NCBI RefSeq assembly: GCF_000383975.1
Contig: NZ_KB913017.1
Span: 2,345,527 to 2,409,526, forward strand
Reading direction: 5' to 3'
DNA length: 64,000 nucleotides
From: Natronorubrum tibetense GA33
Lineage (GTDB): Archaea; Halobacteriota; Halobacteria; Halobacteriales; Natrialbaceae
The position numbers and the translations under genes are program-made. This document shows positions 33,690 through 41,072 of this stretch, one piece after another. The notes beneath the pieces were generated by a model. It made no database searches. It was not told the DNA's origin and saw only the letters and a list, made by a program, of their open reading frames with translations. Position 1 is the stretch's first letter, and each line of letters opens with the position of its first letter.

Positions 33690-33917
33690 ATGAACTTGGC
33701 CTCCAGTGAAATCCTCCGGCGATCGCGACACCTCGAGCGAGTCGAGTCAGTGACGGCTGAGGCGACCGTTCGTCACGTCGATCAACTCGATACGGAGACA
33801 CTGGACGCGTTTTATAGCGCACTGACGGCCGACCGGCCGGTTTCGGAGGCCGACGTCGACCTCGAGTCGGGTGAGGTGATCGTCTTCACCGACTACTACC
33901 GCGTCGCTCGCGCCTGA
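33690..33917 (+). CDS. Small haloarchaeal protein of unknown function
   Basis: 75 residues, acidic, ending VIVFTDYYRVARA. It lies 153 bases after the oxidoreductase with its own AT-rich upstream (CAGTTACATACTG). It has no signal, transmembrane segment or Cys motif. Codon use matches the neighbourhood. I do not recognise the family. Confidence 0.6.
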   Translation: MNLASSEILRRSRHLERVESVTAEATVRHVDQLDTETLDAFYSALTADRPVSEADVDLESGEVIVFTDYYRVARA

Positions 33918-34070
33918 TACGGACGAACGTACTGAGTCGGTGAATTCGTCGAACCCACTTCGTTAGATGGCCATTTCAGTGAGCTTTCCGCACACTACAA
34001 CTGCGTACTGTTCGATGTTCTCCAGTACATGACACTCAGATTATGCTGTCATCATAACTGCTTATGGAGC

Positions 34071-34088
34071 GAGGAGATGTCTCTCCTC
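34071..34088 (+). promoter_or_regulatory. Hairpin immediately before the DUF2270 start codon
   Basis: GAGGAGA (34071-34077) and TCTCCTC (34082-34088) pair perfectly around TGTC, two bases before the ATG at 34090. The 5' arm contains the only Shine-Dalgarno-like sequence, so the fold would hide it. If the CTTATGG at 34061-34067 is a TATA box the message is leaderless, and the palindrome would instead act in DNA. Confidence 0.45.
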
Positions 34089-34089
34089 T

Positions 34090-34806
34090 ATGACCGATTC
34101 GAGTAGCGACGAGTTCGACCCAACAGCGCCAGATCAACGGGAGATCGGCCGTGAAATGGTTGACGACAGTACGGGACTCGGTTCGGTGATGGCCCATGCC
34201 TATCGCGGAGAGATAGACCGAGTGGGGACGTGGCGGCAGCGCCTCGACGAGTCGACGACGTGGGCGGTGACGCTGATGGCAGCAATCTTGACGTGGGCGT
34301 TTTCGAGTCCCGATAACCCACACTATATCTTGCTGATCGGAGTCCTTATCGTCACCATCTTTCTGGGCATCGAAGCACGGCGGTACCGGGACTACGACGT
34401 CTTTCGCTCTCGTGCTCGAGTGATCCAAGAGAACCTGTTCGCAAACGCCCTCGATCCGTCCCAAGGCATTGAAAGTCACGACTGGCGAGCGGAACTGAGC
34501 AGGGACTATCGCAGGCCGACGCTGAAAGTCTCGGTATACGAAGCACTCGCAAACCGGCTCCGGCGTGTGTACCTTGCTCTGCTCAGTGTCCTCTTGGTCG
34601 CGTGGGTCTTCAGGATTACAGCGTTCGCGCCGCGCCAGGACTGGCTGACAACCGCTGGAATCGCTCGTATCCCCGGGATAGGTGTGGTTGCCGTTGTGGG
34701 TGTGTTCTACGTCGTACTGTTGGGCGTCACCTTCTGGCCCCACGAGCGCCATGCCAAGGGTGAATTCCGTGAAGGGGACCCGGACGACTGGAAAGAGAAC
34801 CGATAA
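34090..34806 (+). CDS. DUF2270 membrane protein
   Basis: 238 residues. The family core reads GSVMAHAYRGEIDRVGTWRQRLDESTTWAVTL, followed by four transmembrane helices in two pairs separated by a cytoplasmic-looking loop (RDYDVFRSRARVIQENLFANAL). The C-terminus is charged. Function unknown across archaea and bacteria. It lies just left of the mobile island and reads toward it. Confidence 0.8.
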   Translation: MTDSSSDEFDPTAPDQREIGREMVDDSTGLGSVMAHAYRGEIDRVGTWRQRLDESTTWAVTLMAAILTWAFSSPDNPHYILLIGVLIVTIFLGIEARRYRDYDVFRSRARVIQENLFANALDPSQGIESHDWRAELSRDYRRPTLKVSVYEALANRLRRVYLALLSVLLVAWVFRITAFAPRQDWLTTAGIARIPGIGVVAVVGVFYVVLLGVTFWPHERHAKGEFREGDPDDWKENR

Positions 34807-35103
34807 ATTCGTTCTCTGTATGCATCAACAGGGGTATTGAAGCTACCAGCTGAGAAGAGTTTCAACAATGCCCACTTTCCCTCTACTGATCACACCTCGG
34901 ATTTCGTTCGCTCTCTATGGGGCTGAATTTGTCGATCACTACATTTTTCGAGCTGTACACTTCCAAATTACTGCTGTTGACTACATGACCTGCTCAATAA
35001 CGAGGCGTCCAGAATCCTGGTTTTGTTGAAATCCTATTCTTCAGGTGTATTTTAGCGTGAAACGCACGCTCACTACACGTGCTTATTGTGTACTCTTTTA
35101 GTG
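34807..35103. other. AT-rich gene-free stretch left of the mobile island
   Basis: These 297 bases hold no supportable gene. The motif CCAGAATCCTG (35009-35019) followed by GTTGAAATCCT (35025-35035) recurs rearranged at 40550-40575 on the far side of the island. The stretch ends with the left copy of the island's target repeat. Confidence 0.5.
35095..35103. repeat. Left copy of the 9-base target duplication
   Basis: CTTTTAGTG directly abuts the outer end of the left IS copy. The identical 9-mer at 40301-40309 abuts the outer end of the right IS copy. Confidence 0.75.
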
Positions 35104-36037
35104 GGCCGTGTTTAGACGCTAGTAATATTGCCTCTATGTCGAGAATTCTAGGAAATGAAGCGAGCACAGGTGGATGTGCACTCCAAACTGGCCCGCTTCA
35201 CCGAACGATGCGTCGAATTGTCTCAAAAAGCTGTCGGAAGCGGTTCGAAAGAACCTCTCAGCAAAGGAAAAGATGGCTACGCCGACTGGGTGATCGTAGC
35301 GATCCACGGTCTTCGAGAATACCTCGATCACTCCTACCGACGGTTGCTAGACGTTCTTCGAGAAATGCCTGCTATTGTCGCCAAACTCGGTCTTTCACCG
35401 GATGAGCTGCCGGACCTCACCACCGTTTGTGCTCGAAAACAAGATCTCAAGATGCCCGTCTGGCGGATGCTGTTACAGCTGTCGGCGGAACTATTCGATA
35501 CCGGAGAGGTCCAAGCAATCGACTCAACCAGCATCGCTCATCGCTCGTCCAGCCATAACTACGCAAAGCGCGTTAAAGGAACGTTTGAGTCGGTTAAGAC
35601 CACTATTCTCGTAGACTGTTCTACGCGGGCTATTCTCGACGTACACTGCTCGGTGAACCTACCACATGACACGCAGATTGCGTGACAAGTCCTGAAAAGA
35701 AACCTGAACAACGTAGATACCGTCGTCGCTGACAAAGGGTTTGATTGGGATGAACTCCGGCAGATGCTGCGAAACGAGGGAATTAGACCGGTAATCAAGC
35801 ACCGTGAGTTCTACTCGCTCGACGCCGCACACAATGCTAGGATTGATGATGAAACCTACCATCAACGGTCTATCGCAGAATCGATATTTTTCGCACTGCG
35901 CAAACGTTTCGGTTCGACACTTAAGACAAGAACGTGGTTTGGACAGTTCCGAGAGCTCGTCCTTAAGTCCGCCGTGAAAAACATCGAACAATCGCTCAGG
36001 GCCTAAATCTGATGATATCGACCGTCTAAACAAGACC
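35104..36037 (+). mobile_element. Left IS5-like element with an inactivated transposase
   Basis: 934 bases. The ends are GGCCGTGTTTAGACG (left) and, inverted, GGTCTTGTTTAGACG (right), 13 of 15 identical. It carries one transposase frame broken by a single nonsense codon. The left end is the outer boundary of the composite; the right end cuts into a DUF1214 gene remnant. Confidence 0.75.
35155..36006 (+). pseudogene. IS5-family transposase with one nonsense mutation
   Basis: Reading straight through gives 283 residues that align end to end with the intact transposase at 39344-40204 at roughly half identity. The only lesion is TGA at 35683-35685, where the homologue has Trp in the block HDTQVGWQVL; here it reads HDTQIA-stop-QVL. 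Both halves stay in the same frame and keep the DDE elements (VQAIDST, VVADKGFDW, YHQRSIAESIF). The mutation is therefore recent or weakly selected. The transposase could still be supplied in trans by the right-hand element. Confidence 0.85.
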
Positions 36038-36126
36038 GCTGGCGCTATATCGTCCGACTCTACCGACCACGTGAAGAGGTTCTCGATGGAAGCTATCAGT
36101 TTCCCGAGGCCGAGCCGATCGAGTGA
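36037..36126 (+). pseudogene. C-terminal remnant of a DUF1254/DUF1214 protein
   Basis: Reading from the inner end of the left IS, the frame gives [18 protein letters not shown] followed by [11 protein letters not shown] and a TGA stop at 36124. LRLYWPKxEVLDGxW is the conserved C-terminus of DUF1214 proteins. The gene is cut exactly at the IS boundary. A central piece of the same type of gene lies at the other inner end, 39009-39263. Confidence 0.65.
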
Positions 36127-36236
36127 GACGGTCGTCCTCGGGGACGGATCTGTTTCAGCTGCGATCTCTCGAACCTCGCTGAGCCGTCCGAACGGATAAC
36201 GGCTCGAATCCGAGGCGGCCGGCGTGGCGTCTTCGG

Positions 36237-37967
36237 TCAGTCCTCCACGGCTGTTTCAGACGTTTCATGTGTCGAACCCTGGGGCGATTCGGAGCGGTCG
36301 GTTCGTTCGTCGGCTTCTGGTATCTCCCGTGGCAAGAACGTCGATGCGACGAGCAAGAGCAACACGACCAGTACGAGGAGGAGCAACGTCGCCCGCTGGG
36401 CGTCGAACATCGCAGCCTCGAAGATCTCCTCGAGCAACTGTTGTTGTGTCGGAGTGAGTCGGTCCAGAAACTGTTGTTGTGTGGCTTCGGTCGCCGTCTC
36501 CGCTGCGTCCTCGAGGGCGATCACCAGATCGTTTCGTTGCGACGCTGAAACGGTCACGTGTTCCGCTCGGAGGACCCCGTCGACGACGCTCCCGTAGAAC
36601 CGTCCGAGAAAATACGAGCCGACGACCGCTGTCCCCAGGGCGAATCCGATCGAACTGCTCACGTTCAGGACGGCGGATGCCTCGGGGGAGTCCGTGGTCG
36701 GGACAGCTGACATCGTCATATTGCCAATCTGTGCCACGATGAGTCCGACACCGGCCCCGTAAAGCGCCACTGGAAGAAGCATCCGGCCGATCGTCTGACC
36801 GGGACCCGTCTGCTCGTACAGTACCAGCAGTCCAGCGCCCATACACACGATGCCGACCTGGACGAGCGTCTTCGGTGAGATGTATTTCCGCCAGCCGGTC
36901 GTAAACGTCGCAAAGAGGATCGATGCGATGGAATACGGCAACAGCGCGAGTCCGGTTTCGAAAGCGGTGTACCCGAGTACTGCCTGGAGATAGACCGGGA
37001 AGATAAACATGAAGCCGGCCGAGACTATCGAGCGTATATTGTACGTTATAATGCCGGCTAAAAAAGGGCGGTTCGTCAGTACGTGTAGCGGAACGAGCGG
37101 CGACTTCCCGGCGCGTTCCAGTCGGTGTTCGTACTGAACGAGCGCGGCGAACGCGAGCAGTCCGACCCCGAGAAACCAGATCGCCGGCGACGTCCCGAAC
37201 GGATTGAACTGCATCTCGCCGACGACGAACGGCCGCCGTTCGACCAACCACCCGTACTTTCCGCTCAGGAGGAATCCAGCGACGAGCGACGTCGCACCGA
37301 CGATGGACAGTGCCGTCCCACCTTTATCCAGCGAACTGCGCGATTCCGACAGCGGGTTCGGAGTCACGTACTGAACGAAGAAGAGAATAATCCCCGCACC
37401 GAGGATTTGGAGAGAAAATCCCCAGCGCCAACTTGCGTACGTGGTTAGTGCCCCACCGATAATCGGTCCAAGAGTCGATCCAACCCCGTGAACGCCAGCC
37501 AGCAGGCCGAACGCCTTTGCCCGGTCATCGTCTTCGTAACTGACTGTCAATACAGTGAACGTCAGGGGAAATATCACAGCGGCCGCGGAACCCTGGACGA
37601 GTGACCAGCCGAGATAGAGGACCGTCGTGTTCCAGCTAATCGCCGCCACCAGCGTTCCGCCGGCGTAGACGGTCAGTGCGACTGCCATCACACGCCGAGG
37701 ACTACGCCGAGACGGCAGCGTACCGGCTGGGAGAATTAGCGCAGCTATCACCAGCGAGTAGAGTGAAACCGCCCCTTGAATCACGGTGACCGTGGTATCG
37801 AATTCGTCCACCATCGTGGGAATCGCCACGTTCATCAGGGAGGCGTTGACAACCACGATGAACGTTGTCAGACTCACGGCGATTGCCGGAGCCCAGTACT
37901 GTACCCTCGTCCGCAACTCCTTAGATATAGACGTATCCCCCTTTGAAGGAAACTCGTCCGGGGTCAT
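36237..37967 (-). CDS. MFS exporter, DHA2 (14-helix) family
   Basis: 576 residues with 14 predicted transmembrane helices, the EmrB/QacA-type drug:H+ antiporter layout. The antiporter motif C appears as GVHGVGSTLGPIIGGAL. The helix 2-3 loop motif A is degenerate (LPSRRSPRRVMAV). A charged extramembrane region precedes the final helix, and the C-terminus is Arg/Glu/Ser-rich. It lies inside the composite transposon as its main cargo, downstream of the GAP-family gene on the same strand. Possible role: export of a toxic or signalling compound. No TetR-type regulator is carried. Confidence 0.85.
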   Translation of the reverse strand: MTPDEFPSKGDTSISKELRTRVQYWAPAIAVSLTTFIVVVNASLMNVAIPTMVDEFDTTVTVIQGAVSLYSLVIAALILPAGTLPSRRSPRRVMAVALTVYAGGTLVAAISWNTTVLYLGWSLVQGSAAAVIFPLTFTVLTVSYEDDDRAKAFGLLAGVHGVGSTLGPIIGGALTTYASWRWGFSLQILGAGIILFFVQYVTPNPLSESRSSLDKGGTALSIVGATSLVAGFLLSGKYGWLVERRPFVVGEMQFNPFGTSPAIWFLGVGLLAFAALVQYEHRLERAGKSPLVPLHVLTNRPFLAGIITYNIRSIVSAGFMFIFPVYLQAVLGYTAFETGLALLPYSIASILFATFTTGWRKYISPKTLVQVGIVCMGAGLLVLYEQTGPGQTIGRMLLPVALYGAGVGLIVAQIGNMTMSAVPTTDSPEASAVLNVSSSIGFALGTAVVGSYFLGRFYGSVVDGVLRAEHVTVSASQRNDLVIALEDAAETATEATQQQFLDRLTPTQQQLLEEIFEAAMFDAQRATLLLLVLVVLLLLVASTFLPREIPEADERTDRSESPQGSTHETSETAVED

Positions 37968-38198
37968 AGAGTGGTCTCATGCTTTTGACCGCCAAATAAC
38001 CGGGATGTGGTCAGGTACGTCGATTGGTCAGCGACTGGCGAGACACCGAGTGTCTTTATACTACCAGCGAATGTGATCGAGAAGGCGAGATACACCCCCT
38101 CATCGTCAGAACGCTACTTTTCAGCCCCATCGAGGGTTCCTGTGGAGAGTCTCGTGAAGTGCCTGGAGAATTCTCCTCGAGCGCCTGAAAATAGAGGA

Positions 38199-38813
38199 TC
38201 ACCCGACGATGTTGTTGACAGTGATCACGACGAAGATGAGGATCACGATTTCGCTCACGATCCACGAGTGTGTGTTCATCCAGGTGCGAACCTTCGGAAG
38301 GAGCGTCTCCGCACGGTTACCGATCGTAACCAGGGCGAGCGATGGACCGGCCAGGAACAATAGCGTCAGTAAGACGAACCCGGCCGCGTACCACAGCGGA
38401 TCGCCGTGACTCGCGAGGTAGGTCCCGACGGTGATCGACGTGAGAATGTCGGTTGGAAAGAATCCCAATAGCAGGAATCCGAGTCGAAACGAGAACGTCG
38501 GGTTCGCAGTCTCGAGTTTGCCCATCCACGTCGGCGGCTCCGATTGCTCGCGCTTCAGGTAGACGTTCACCATCGCGGCAAGGAGAACGACGAGCACGAG
38601 CAGGTGCACCAGCCGATTCGACCCGCCCTGACGAACGCCACTGCCGAAATAATACGCGAGCGTGACGATGAGACTGATCGAGAGAGAGGCACCGAAGACG
38701 AACGCGGCTGAATTCCGTCGCCAGTCTTCGCTCGTGGCCAGAAAGATGGCGCTGAGGATTTGCGGCCCGCCGATCATGACGAATACCAAGGGGAGAACCA
38801 CCAGGAAGTTCAT
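38199..38813 (-). CDS. GAP-family membrane protein
   Basis: 204 residues with six hydrophobic segments. The features MNFLVVLPLVFVMIGGPQIL, the GFFPTDILTSITVGTYLA segment in the middle and a final helix ending VITVNNIVG fit the GAP/Sap family (PF11139), which in mycobacteria helps move glycolipids to the surface, and in broader terms the LysE-like fold. Second cargo gene of the composite transposon, 231 bases upstream of the MFS gene on the same strand. Confidence 0.65.
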   Translation of the reverse strand: MNFLVVLPLVFVMIGGPQILSAIFLATSEDWRRNSAAFVFGASLSISLIVTLAYYFGSGVRQGGSNRLVHLLVLVVLLAAMVNVYLKREQSEPPTWMGKLETANPTFSFRLGFLLLGFFPTDILTSITVGTYLASHGDPLWYAAGFVLLTLLFLAGPSLALVTIGNRAETLLPKVRTWMNTHSWIVSEIVILIFVVITVNNIVG

Positions 38814-39321
38814 CGGTCGAGGATTACACGCATGGTCGCGGCCTGTCCGTGGACACTCGAGATTGTCGGCTCACGGCTAGAACTGACGTCGATCGGAAAC
38901 CACGGTTCGAGTGTCGGTAGTTGATTATACTCATATGACTTTCGACCGAATACACTGCCCACCGACATTATAGCCCACTCCTGTGAGAGATCGTCGATAG
39001 CCAGAGTTGTTGCTGAAAATCAAGCGGATGAGGACACCGCTGACACGGTGCCGATCACGGCGAGTCAACGGTCGCCCGGAACGTTCGAGACACCCAACTG
39101 GGATCAGGAATCGCTCGAGGGAATCCGCAATGCGCTCATCACGGTCGGAGAGACGATTGACGACTCCCGGGGCGTGTGGGACGACGCCGCCGAAGGAGAG
39201 TACCTCGTGATGGTAACGGGCAGATTCGTGACAAGAATCGAAACAATCAGTGCTACTGAATAGTTAGTTCACGAGTTTCGACCTGAGATCAGCAGTTGTG
39301 GGGTGTTGAATAGATTCTCTA
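38814..39321. other. Right part of the transposon cargo without an intact gene
   Basis: 508 bases. The left half holds the presumed promoter of the GAP-family gene and AT-rich DNA with stops in all frames. The right half carries the DUF1254-like remnant at 39009-39263, followed by about 60 bases of non-coding DNA up to the inner end of the right IS. Confidence 0.5.
39009..39263 (+). pseudogene. Central remnant of a DUF1254/DUF1214 protein
   Basis: The frame reads ...FETPNWDQESLEGIRNALITVG followed by ETIDDSRGVWDDAAEGEY, which resembles the linker region of DUF1254/DUF1214 proteins (pattern PxxWDxxxLxxIRxxLxxLG). Upstream there are stops and no N-terminus; downstream the likeness ends at about 39205 and a TAG follows at 39261. 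It has the same orientation as the C-terminal remnant at 36037, but the two lie in reversed order across the cargo. Confidence 0.45.
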
Positions 39322-40300
39322 GGCCTTGTTTGAACGCGTGATCTTACGGGTGTGAGTCCTCGATGGCGCGTTCGATGTTTCGGACCGCGGATTTCATGAC
39401 AAGCTCACGGAATTGACCGAACCAGTTCCTCGACCAGAGTGTATCGCCGTATCTGCGCCGAAGACCGAAAAATACCGATTCAGCGTTCGAACGCTGGTGA
39501 TACGCTCGATCCTTGATGAGCAAATTTCTCGACCATCCCCGCATTCCAGGATCTCGCTGCGGGATCAGCGGTGTGACACTTTCCGCACGCAATCTCGTGC
39601 GAAGCTCCTCCCAGTCGTAGCCCTTATCGGCAGCGACAGTCGCCAACTTGTCGAGATTCCGCACTAACACCTGCCAGCCGACCTGTGTATCATGCGGTTG
39701 TTTCATCGAACAGTGTATGTCGAGAATCGCACTGGTTTTACAATCAATGAGCAGCGTCGTCTTCACCGCCTCGAACGTGTAGTCCGTCCGTTTTGCGTAG
39801 TGCTGGCTAGCTTGGACGCGATCAACACCGGTTGCGTCGATCGCCTGCACATCACCGAGATCATACAGTTCGGCGGACTGATCGAGAATCGCTCGCCACC
39901 GCTTCATTGGAATCGCCTGCTTTCGCGTACACACCGTCGAGAAGTGTGGGACCGTTTCAGGCGTCAATCCGAGTGATTTCGTCATTCTCGGCATCTCACG
40001 GAGGACGTCCATCAGCTTCCGGTACGGGTGGCCGAGATACTCTTTTAACCCCTGGACGGCGAGAATCACCCAGTCAGCGTAACCTTCTTCTCCCGGACGG
40101 TAGGCCGGAGCTGGCTGGCCAACGACGGCTTTTTGGGCGAGCGACACAACCTTCTCTGTGAAGCGGGAGGTCTTCGTGTGCACAACGAACCCATCCCGCT
40201 TCACTTCCTAGTAGATTTGGCATTTTCATCGAGCTACTAGCACGGCGATACGAATTCGATTGGCTCTACACTGCTGAAGTTTGAGCGTCTAAACAAGGCC
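39322..40300 (-). mobile_element. Right IS5-like element, intact
   Basis: 979 bases. The outer end (inverted) reads GGCCTTGTTTAGACGCTC; the inner end reads GGCCTTGTTTGAACGCG. It carries one full-length transposase gene. It is related to the left copy in ends and protein but diverged, so the two did not arise by a recent duplication. Confidence 0.8.
39344..40204 (-). CDS. IS5-family transposase
   Basis: 286 residues, intact. The DDE catalytic pieces are visible as VQAIDATG (first Asp, near residue 126), VAADKGYDW (second Asp, near residue 200) and YHQRSNAESVFFGLRRRYG (the Glu, near residue 245). The N-terminal part has a helical DNA-binding region ending YADWVILAVQGLKEYLG. It can probably mobilise both IS copies and the whole composite, since the ends are nearly the same. 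Confidence 0.9.
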   Translation of the reverse strand: MKRDGFVVHTKTSRFTEKVVSLAQKAVVGQPAPAYRPGEEGYADWVILAVQGLKEYLGHPYRKLMDVLREMPRMTKSLGLTPETVPHFSTVCTRKQAIPMKRWRAILDQSAELYDLGDVQAIDATGVDRVQASQHYAKRTDYTFEAVKTTLLIDCKTSAILDIHCSMKQPHDTQVGWQVLVRNLDKLATVAADKGYDWEELRTRLRAESVTPLIPQRDPGMRGWSRNLLIKDRAYHQRSNAESVFFGLRRRYGDTLWSRNWFGQFRELVMKSAVRNIERAIEDSHP

Positions 40301-40309
40301 CTTTTAGTG
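40301..40309. repeat. Right copy of the 9-base target duplication
   Basis: CTTTTAGTG follows directly after the outer end of the right IS and matches 35095-35103. It lies 21-29 bases before the ATG of the small membrane protein at 40330, where a TATA box would be for a leaderless gene. Confidence 0.75.
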
Positions 40310-40329
40310 TATCAAACGCACGAATAGCT

Positions 40330-40500
40330 ATGCTCTGGACGATATTGATCGGATTTCTGGTTGTCGTGATCGGAACGTATATCGGCGCAAGGATGGCGCT
40401 TCGGTCGTTCTTTGGTCGAGATTTCGTCGATCCCGAGACGGGTGAATTCACCCTGCCCGAGTCTGCTTTCGATGATTCGGTAAAGGAGAGCGATCGATAG
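40330..40500 (+). CDS. Small one-helix membrane protein (56 residues)
   Basis: ATG to TAG with a clear N-terminal transmembrane segment (LWTILIGFLVVVIGTYIGA) followed by a short basic turn (RMALRSFFGR) and an acidic tail. Codon use is genuine-looking. The insertion repeat of the composite transposon sits at its -21 to -29 position, so the island split this gene from its upstream DNA, although the repeat restores part of the promoter. Function unknown. Confidence 0.6.
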   Translation: MLWTILIGFLVVVIGTYIGARMALRSFFGRDFVDPETGEFTLPESAFDDSVKESDR

Positions 40501-40539
40501 GTACCGGTCATGTACTTACCGCAGAGGGTACCAAACCTA

Positions 40540-40749
40540 TCATGTTCTAAGGATTTCAACAGAGCCAGAATCCTGTATTCGCACATCGTACTGGTGGTCG
40601 TTGTGGTCCGTCAGATCTACACTAACAGCGCTGCCACCGTTGTTCTCGGTGACGAGCTGATCGAGTGCTGTTGGATCAACGTGGTCAATAATCCTTACAC
40701 CCGTATCGGCGTGGTACTGTCGGATGCACTCGGAGGTATATCGCTTCAA
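40540..40749 (-). CDS. Short HalOD1-like protein
   Basis: Reading from a TTG at 40749 gives 69 residues. The part VRIIDHVDPTALDQLV followed by VSVDLTDHNDHQYDVRIQDSGSVEI matches the Halobacterial output domain 1 pattern (VDPxALxxLF, then two beta strands ending GxVEV). The start is uncertain: no ATG is near, and upstream in-frame codons run into a possible TnpB relic. The sequence GTTGAAATCCT at its 3' end repeats a motif found left of the transposon. Confidence 0.4.
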   Translation of the reverse strand: MKRYTSECIRQYHADTGVRIIDHVDPTALDQLVTENNGGSAVSVDLTDHNDHQYDVRIQDSGSVEILRT

Positions 40750-40769
40750 AACAGCGTCTATAAACCCTC

Positions 40770-40990
40770 TAGAGGGGCTTTCCTTTTTTATAGAGAATCC
40801 TGCTTGGTGGCTGCTCTTTCCCGATAGACACATACGCTGTACCGACATCAATAGCTGCGGTAACTCCTTCGCCTGTACGTACCGTTACGGGTACAAAAAC
40901 TGCTACTAGATATCCATCTCGAGCAGGGTAAGTGATCAGTTTCGGCCCACCGTTCGAGCCCTTCGGTGACGTTTTCGCGATCCACTGGCT
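40770..40990 (-). pseudogene. Possible relic of a TnpB-type IS200/IS605 protein
   Basis: On the minus strand the frame holds ITYPARDGYLVAVFVPVTV followed by GVTAAIDVGTAYVSIG, which resembles the stretch leading into the first RuvC Asp of haloarchaeal TnpB (NTAAIDIGxNN). It ends at a TAG inside a hairpin, GCCCCTCTAGAGGG, reminiscent of such an element's right end. The rest of TnpB is absent. The match is short and could be chance. Confidence 0.25.
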
Positions 40991-41072
40991 GTCGTCGTGT
41001 CGATCGTTCACCGTCACCCAGTTAGTCGGCAGTATCGAAGCCGTTTTCCCCCGTGCGCGTCTTCACTCTCGT

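Follow-up and report, generated by a model that had tools for sequence, protein, structure and literature searches.

The arrangement of two insertion sequences and their flanks makes it highly probable that Natronorubrum tibetense GA33 carries an IS5-type composite transposon of 5,197 bp that was inserted as one unit, with capture of a donor segment and synapsis of the outer ends as the proposed mechanism. The window (the whole 64-kb stretch of DNA that was analysed) holds this element at 35104-40300, where it consists of a left insertion sequence (LIS), cargo genes, and a right insertion sequence (RIS) in inverted orientation, so that two ISs of the same family enclose genes unrelated to either. 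Judged by sequence, two distinct IS5-family elements lie in inverted orientation around a 3.3-kb chromosomal segment. The sequence also shows that the whole block was inserted once, as a unit, just ahead of a small gene, with duplication of 9 bp, and that its inner junctions are relics of the donor locus. The first-pass annotation had placed the element at 35095-40309; the element itself was confirmed, while those limits take in both copies of the duplication. The main parts are as follows.

35095-35103, unstranded: left copy of the 9-bp target-site duplication, CTTTTAGTG, present as a single copy at the L212 empty site
35104-36037, forward strand: LIS, IS5-like, with outer end GGCCGTGTTTAGACGC and inner end GGTCTTGTTTAGACGG; limits set by standalone copies that carry 9-bp duplications
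35155-36006, forward strand: LIS transposase gene with one in-frame TGA near 35683; intact homologue at L174:9398-10249
39322-40300, reverse strand: RIS, IS5-like, with inner end GGCCTTGTTTGAACGC and outer end GGCCTTGTTTAGACGC; boundaries from standalone copies with 9-bp duplications
39344-40204, reverse strand: intact RIS transposase, 286 aa, GTG start, IS5 family by NF033579
40301-40309, unstranded: right copy of the target-site duplication, CTTTTAGTG, present as a single copy at the L212 empty site

The duplication is found at the outermost flanks of the block and has the length that each IS makes alone. As had been claimed, an exact 9-base repeat surrounds the 5.2 kb: CTTTTAGTG occurs exactly twice in the window, against 0.06 copies per window expected from shuffling, and none of 100 shuffles contained two. 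The chance of an exact 9-bp match at the outermost flanks is about 7e-6. No corresponding match is seen at the inner flanks, again in agreement with the earlier reading (2/9 positions agree for LIS and 3/9 for RIS), and these flanks belong to the donor. Standalone copies of the two ISs were collected from plasmid records and 125 genomes of the family, aligned at their ends, and cleared of duplicates. Exact 9-bp duplications were present at 14 of 22 standalone RIS sites and 7 of 13 standalone LIS sites, showing that 9 bp is the normal length for both.

LIS and RIS are related but clearly different elements. Their transposases, described earlier as about half identical, share 54% of residues (154/283 aligned, with the LIS stop read as X), and 631 of 873 aligned bases match between the two ISs (72%). 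The outer ends GGCCGTGTTTAGACGC and GGCCTTGTTTAGACGC are indeed 15/16 identical, as first noticed, while the outer and inner ends of each IS are less alike (13/16 for LIS and 14/16 for RIS). The RIS transposase scores 209.5 bits against NCBIfam NF033579, which has a cut-off of 140, and its D, D, and E residues are present in the alignment, as is the Y-x2-R-x3-E-x6-R pattern of the IS5 family, which includes the ISH1 and IS903 groups. RIS has a 93% identical copy at C1:3244272 of the same genome, and a copy of its transposase with 96% amino acid identity is found there. The LIS transposase is interrupted by a TGA at about 35683-35685, where an intact LIS copy at locus L174 has Trp. Because of this in-frame stop, the two LIS fragments score separately, at 95 and 63 bits. 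The duplications do not fit the ISH1 group, since ISH1 makes duplications of 8 bp (PMC7193027) and those made by LIS and RIS are 9 bp.

Uninterrupted copies of the target are present in related genomes. The flanks of the composite were joined through a single CTTTTAGTG and used as a query against 392 genomes of the order. At three loci from genomes of the same family but outside the genus of the window, the alignment with the joined flanks runs through the junction without a break: L211 (85% over 234 bp), L212 (83% over 233 bp), and L213 (79% over 214 bp). Each of these empty sites belongs to a homologue of the target gene in another genome (79-85% identity), and the alignment reaches just 12-26 bp beyond the duplication on its left side. 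The L212 site reads ACTCTTTTAGTGTGTCAAACG, with exactly one CTTTTAGTG, so the empty site proposed as a check was found; L211 and L213 carry CTTTTATTG and CTTATATTG in its place. LIS, RIS, and the cargo were all absent near the three sites. The observations named beforehand as contrary evidence, which were cargo without ISs at an orthologous locus and a lone IS with its own duplication, did not turn up. The continuous empty sites, the single outer duplication, and the lack of inner duplications together support the original proposal that the island moved as one piece. The composite was inserted just upstream of the start of the following gene.

40330-40500, forward strand: target gene, a small membrane-protein-like ORF of 56 aa, with uninterrupted homologous loci at L211, L212, and L213

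The right CTTTTAGTG begins 29 bp before the start codon, and it may overlap the TATA region of this gene. A strictly orthologous empty site was sought in four relatives (G005, G002, G006, and G011), and in all four the whole 7.1-kb stretch is absent. Position 33917 or one nearby is joined to about 41023, with a spacer of about 25 bp in G005. Since these loci lack all of 33918-41022, they are uninformative about the single insertion step of the composite.

The composite lies within a region of layered insertions. The absence of 33918-41022 at the orthologous place in the four relatives shows that this is a variable insertion region. An enclosing element at 35019-40566 contains both the composite and the small gene; its 16-bp inverted ends are GGTTTTGTTGAAATCC and GGATTTCAACAGAGCC, and it is flanked by an 8-bp duplication, AGAATCCT (35011-35018 and 40567-40574). 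The nesting of the composite in this element, together with the relatives that lack the region, shows that the insertions are layered: a DUF2270 block, and beside it the small-gene element with the composite inside. Short copies of the end pair of the enclosing element occur elsewhere, including one of about 265 bp on contig C3 of the same genome. From its ends the enclosing element was considered IS6-like, and this assignment was dropped because similar ends are found on both sides of an IS5-like transposase gene at L006/L109. The DUF2270 block (33994-34821, about 830 bp) recurs in many other genera at 90-97% identity, where its edges are sharp and its flanks unrelated, and some genomes have more than one copy. 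It looks mobile, but neither ends nor a duplication were found for it. Searches of the region for tRNAs and Rfam families gave no matches.

LIS and RIS have preferred targets with common arms and different cores. RIS prefers TGnTGAATA-CATCCTCTG-TATTCAGCA and LIS prefers TGCTGAATA-CAGGGCGCG-TAT, and in both the middle nine bases are duplicated. The arms are common to both, and the 9-bp cores differ (CAGGGCGCG for LIS versus CATCCTCTG for RIS). Such target choice seems to be more selective than IS5-family elements usually show. The target of the composite itself falls in the top 0.08% of window positions on the LIS and RIS target profiles, a rank to which A+T content may contribute.

Both ISs favor a 27-bp palindrome, TGCTGAATA-N9-TATTCAGCA, that also occurs unoccupied. 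There are 36 unoccupied palindromes in 21 genomes (L179-L193 among them), compared with 1 for a reversed control; by core, 24 are CTCT-type (RIS-like) and 7 are GCGC-type (LIS-like). As 13 of the 15 that were inspected look intergenic, the palindrome resembles an archaeal REP-like repeat. At some occupied sites (L127, L046/L148, and L049/L155) the right core is approximately the reverse complement of the left core, with the palindromic arms unchanged, and at L127 the match is exact (CATCCTCTG and CAGAGGATG). One guess is that recombination took place between copies in oppositely oriented sites.

The cargo and its borders suggest that a chromosomal segment was captured at a donor locus. The first-pass annotation had described the cargo as an MFS exporter and a GAP-family protein, and Pfam matches bear this out; on these matches both are predicted to be export-like membrane proteins. 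The cargo genes and the donor relics are the following.

36038-36129, forward strand: 3' tail of a DUF1254/DUF1214 gene, donor relic beside the LIS inner end; DNA identity to G002 paralogue 2
36237-37967, reverse strand: MFS exporter, DHA2/EmrB-like; PF07690, E=1.4e-40, with TIGR00711 below its cut-off
38199-38813, reverse strand: SfLAP/GAP-like membrane protein; PF11139, E=1.4e-18, above its cut-off
39053-39193, forward strand: middle fragment of a second DUF1254/DUF1214 paralogue, donor relic; DNA identity to G002 paralogue 1
39304-39321, forward strand: inner flank of RIS, TGTTGAATA-GATTCTCTA, a donor relic that is one half of the target RIS normally uses; half-site score

The fragment at 36038-36129 has 94% DNA identity to paralogue 2 of G002 (L086), and its homologue is DUF1214 by Pfam; the fragment at 39053-39193 has 88% identity to paralogue 1. 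In G002 the two paralogues are about 1.4 kb apart and in the same order as in the window, where the paralogue-2 tail is followed by the cargo and then by the middle of paralogue 1. Because the cargo is bounded by two paralogue fragments in the order of the relative, it appears that a chromosomal segment was captured. A circular permutation of one DUF1254 gene, with its tail to the left and its middle to the right of the cargo, was also considered and rejected, since the pieces best match different paralogues, and these are neighbors in G002 in the same order as the pieces. Of 127,964 window positions, none scores better as a RIS half-site than the inner flank of RIS, so this flank is the earlier home of RIS. 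The LIS inner flank, GCTGGCGCT-ATATC, has the GGCGC core in common with the LIS target and is a weak fit, within the top 3.6% of positions.

Similar cargo genes are found in other genomes. A member of the same genus as the window, G008, has DUF1254/DUF1214, SulP, and MFS genes (the last 88% identical to the cargo MFS gene), followed by further DUF1254 fragments. Other genomes carry the SfLAP gene, at 83-89% identity, with no accompanying MFS gene, and in Halostagnicola sp. A56 an SfLAP fragment follows the MFS gene. Where cargo genes occur without LIS and RIS, they do so at donor-type loci elsewhere rather than here, which fits capture and does not refute it. A search of the window's own genome found no other DUF1254/DUF1214 match. 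For this reason the block probably either came from a different strain or species or had a donor locus that has since been lost.

Independent insertion of two ISs beside resident genes, with a 9-bp match by chance, is extremely improbable as an explanation. Both ISs are common, and locus L174 (genome G144) shows that they can insert separately within a few kilobases of each other. There LIS and RIS are 4.1 kb apart in the same relative arrangement as in the window, and the interval holds CNNM and DUF2270 genes, a cargo unlike that of the window. L174 was considered as a second composite, but its two ISs each have a separate exact 9-bp duplication, CAAGGCGCG on both sides of LIS and CAGAGGATG on both sides of RIS, and on that ground it was rejected. 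The separate duplications and the different cargo indicate independent insertions in L174, making the window pattern the exception. In the window neither IS has its own duplication, the exact match is at the outermost flanks, where chance so rarely produces one, and the seamless, cargo-free empty sites already refute separate insertion. The DUF2270 block lies between LIS and RIS in L174, and the same gene adjoins the composite in the window; L174 is possibly a pre-composite arrangement. It is also very improbable that a lone IS at CTTTTAGTG had its interior replaced later by homologous exchange with a LIS-cargo-RIS locus elsewhere. Mismatched flanks on some IS copies (for example L127 and L133) suggest that flanks can be exchanged by recombination. 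However, the outer ends are those of LIS on the left and RIS on the right, so that on one side the exchange would have to occur between sequences with only 72% identity, and two crossovers are needed instead of one transposition.

Transposition of the whole block as one unit can be described by a short series of steps. The donor would have been a genome of the same family in which LIS entered one DUF1254/DUF1214 paralogue and RIS went into or next to a second one, leaving the MFS exporter and the SfLAP-family gene between the two ISs. The outermost LIS and RIS ends would have been synapsed by a transposase, most likely the intact RIS enzyme, and the whole block would then have moved to CTTTTAGTG. 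The end sequences make it likely that one transposase drove both ends by cross-recognition, and the RIS enzyme is favored because the outer ends are so alike and because it is the only intact enzyme. It is quite possible, though not the favored reading, that the block moved while LIS was intact, through the LIS transposase or both enzymes, with RIS not acting alone. The LIS gene is a single stop from an open frame, intact LIS relatives exist, and the stop, being a single change, could postdate the move. On the other hand, RIS now has the sole intact enzyme, and the LIS outer end is closer to the RIS outer end than to its own inner end. The genomes and plasmid collection were also searched for the same composite at other loci, a check suggested at the outset, and no second copy was found; repeated movement as a unit therefore lacks support.

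Composite transposons are a known kind of element, and what is notable here is the mixed IS pair and the well-resolved history in an archaeon. Tn5 and Tn10 are classical composite transposons with inverted ISs. The composite resembles Tn5 in that one IS copy can be defective. ISApl1-mcr-1-ISApl1 is a composite named Tn6330 (PMC5821093). Like Tn5, Tn10, and Tn6330, the element has two ISs around unrelated genes, uses the outermost ends, and has one target duplication of the length made by the IS itself. It differs from all three in its distinct ISs and its haloarchaeal host. Insertion into repetitive extragenic palindromes is known for ISPpu9 (PMC8450116) and other REP-targeting ISs (PMC1525189). 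LIS and RIS similarly favor a mostly intergenic palindrome that is also found unoccupied, and differ in being an archaeal IS5-like pair with common arms and two cores. Within the searched literature, mainly papers outside subscription journals, no haloarchaeal composite of this kind is described; a possible ISH4 composite is mentioned in PMC7193027.

Few composite transposons in the searchable archaeal literature can be followed through every step. In this case the donor context, the target, the duplication, and the empty site can all be seen together, providing a testable example of two diverged ISs with common ends. Transporter genes can move between haloarchaeal chromosomes in this way, and plasmids or viruses are not needed for the last step. 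A tentative generalization is that the ends of two haloarchaeal IS5-like lineages may be interchangeable, in which case a single intact transposase could mobilize any segment bounded by both, including one with a dead partner. With a shared 27-bp intergenic palindrome whose versions differ only in the 9-bp core, such pairs might form repeatedly and turn their chromosomal neighborhoods into mobile elements.
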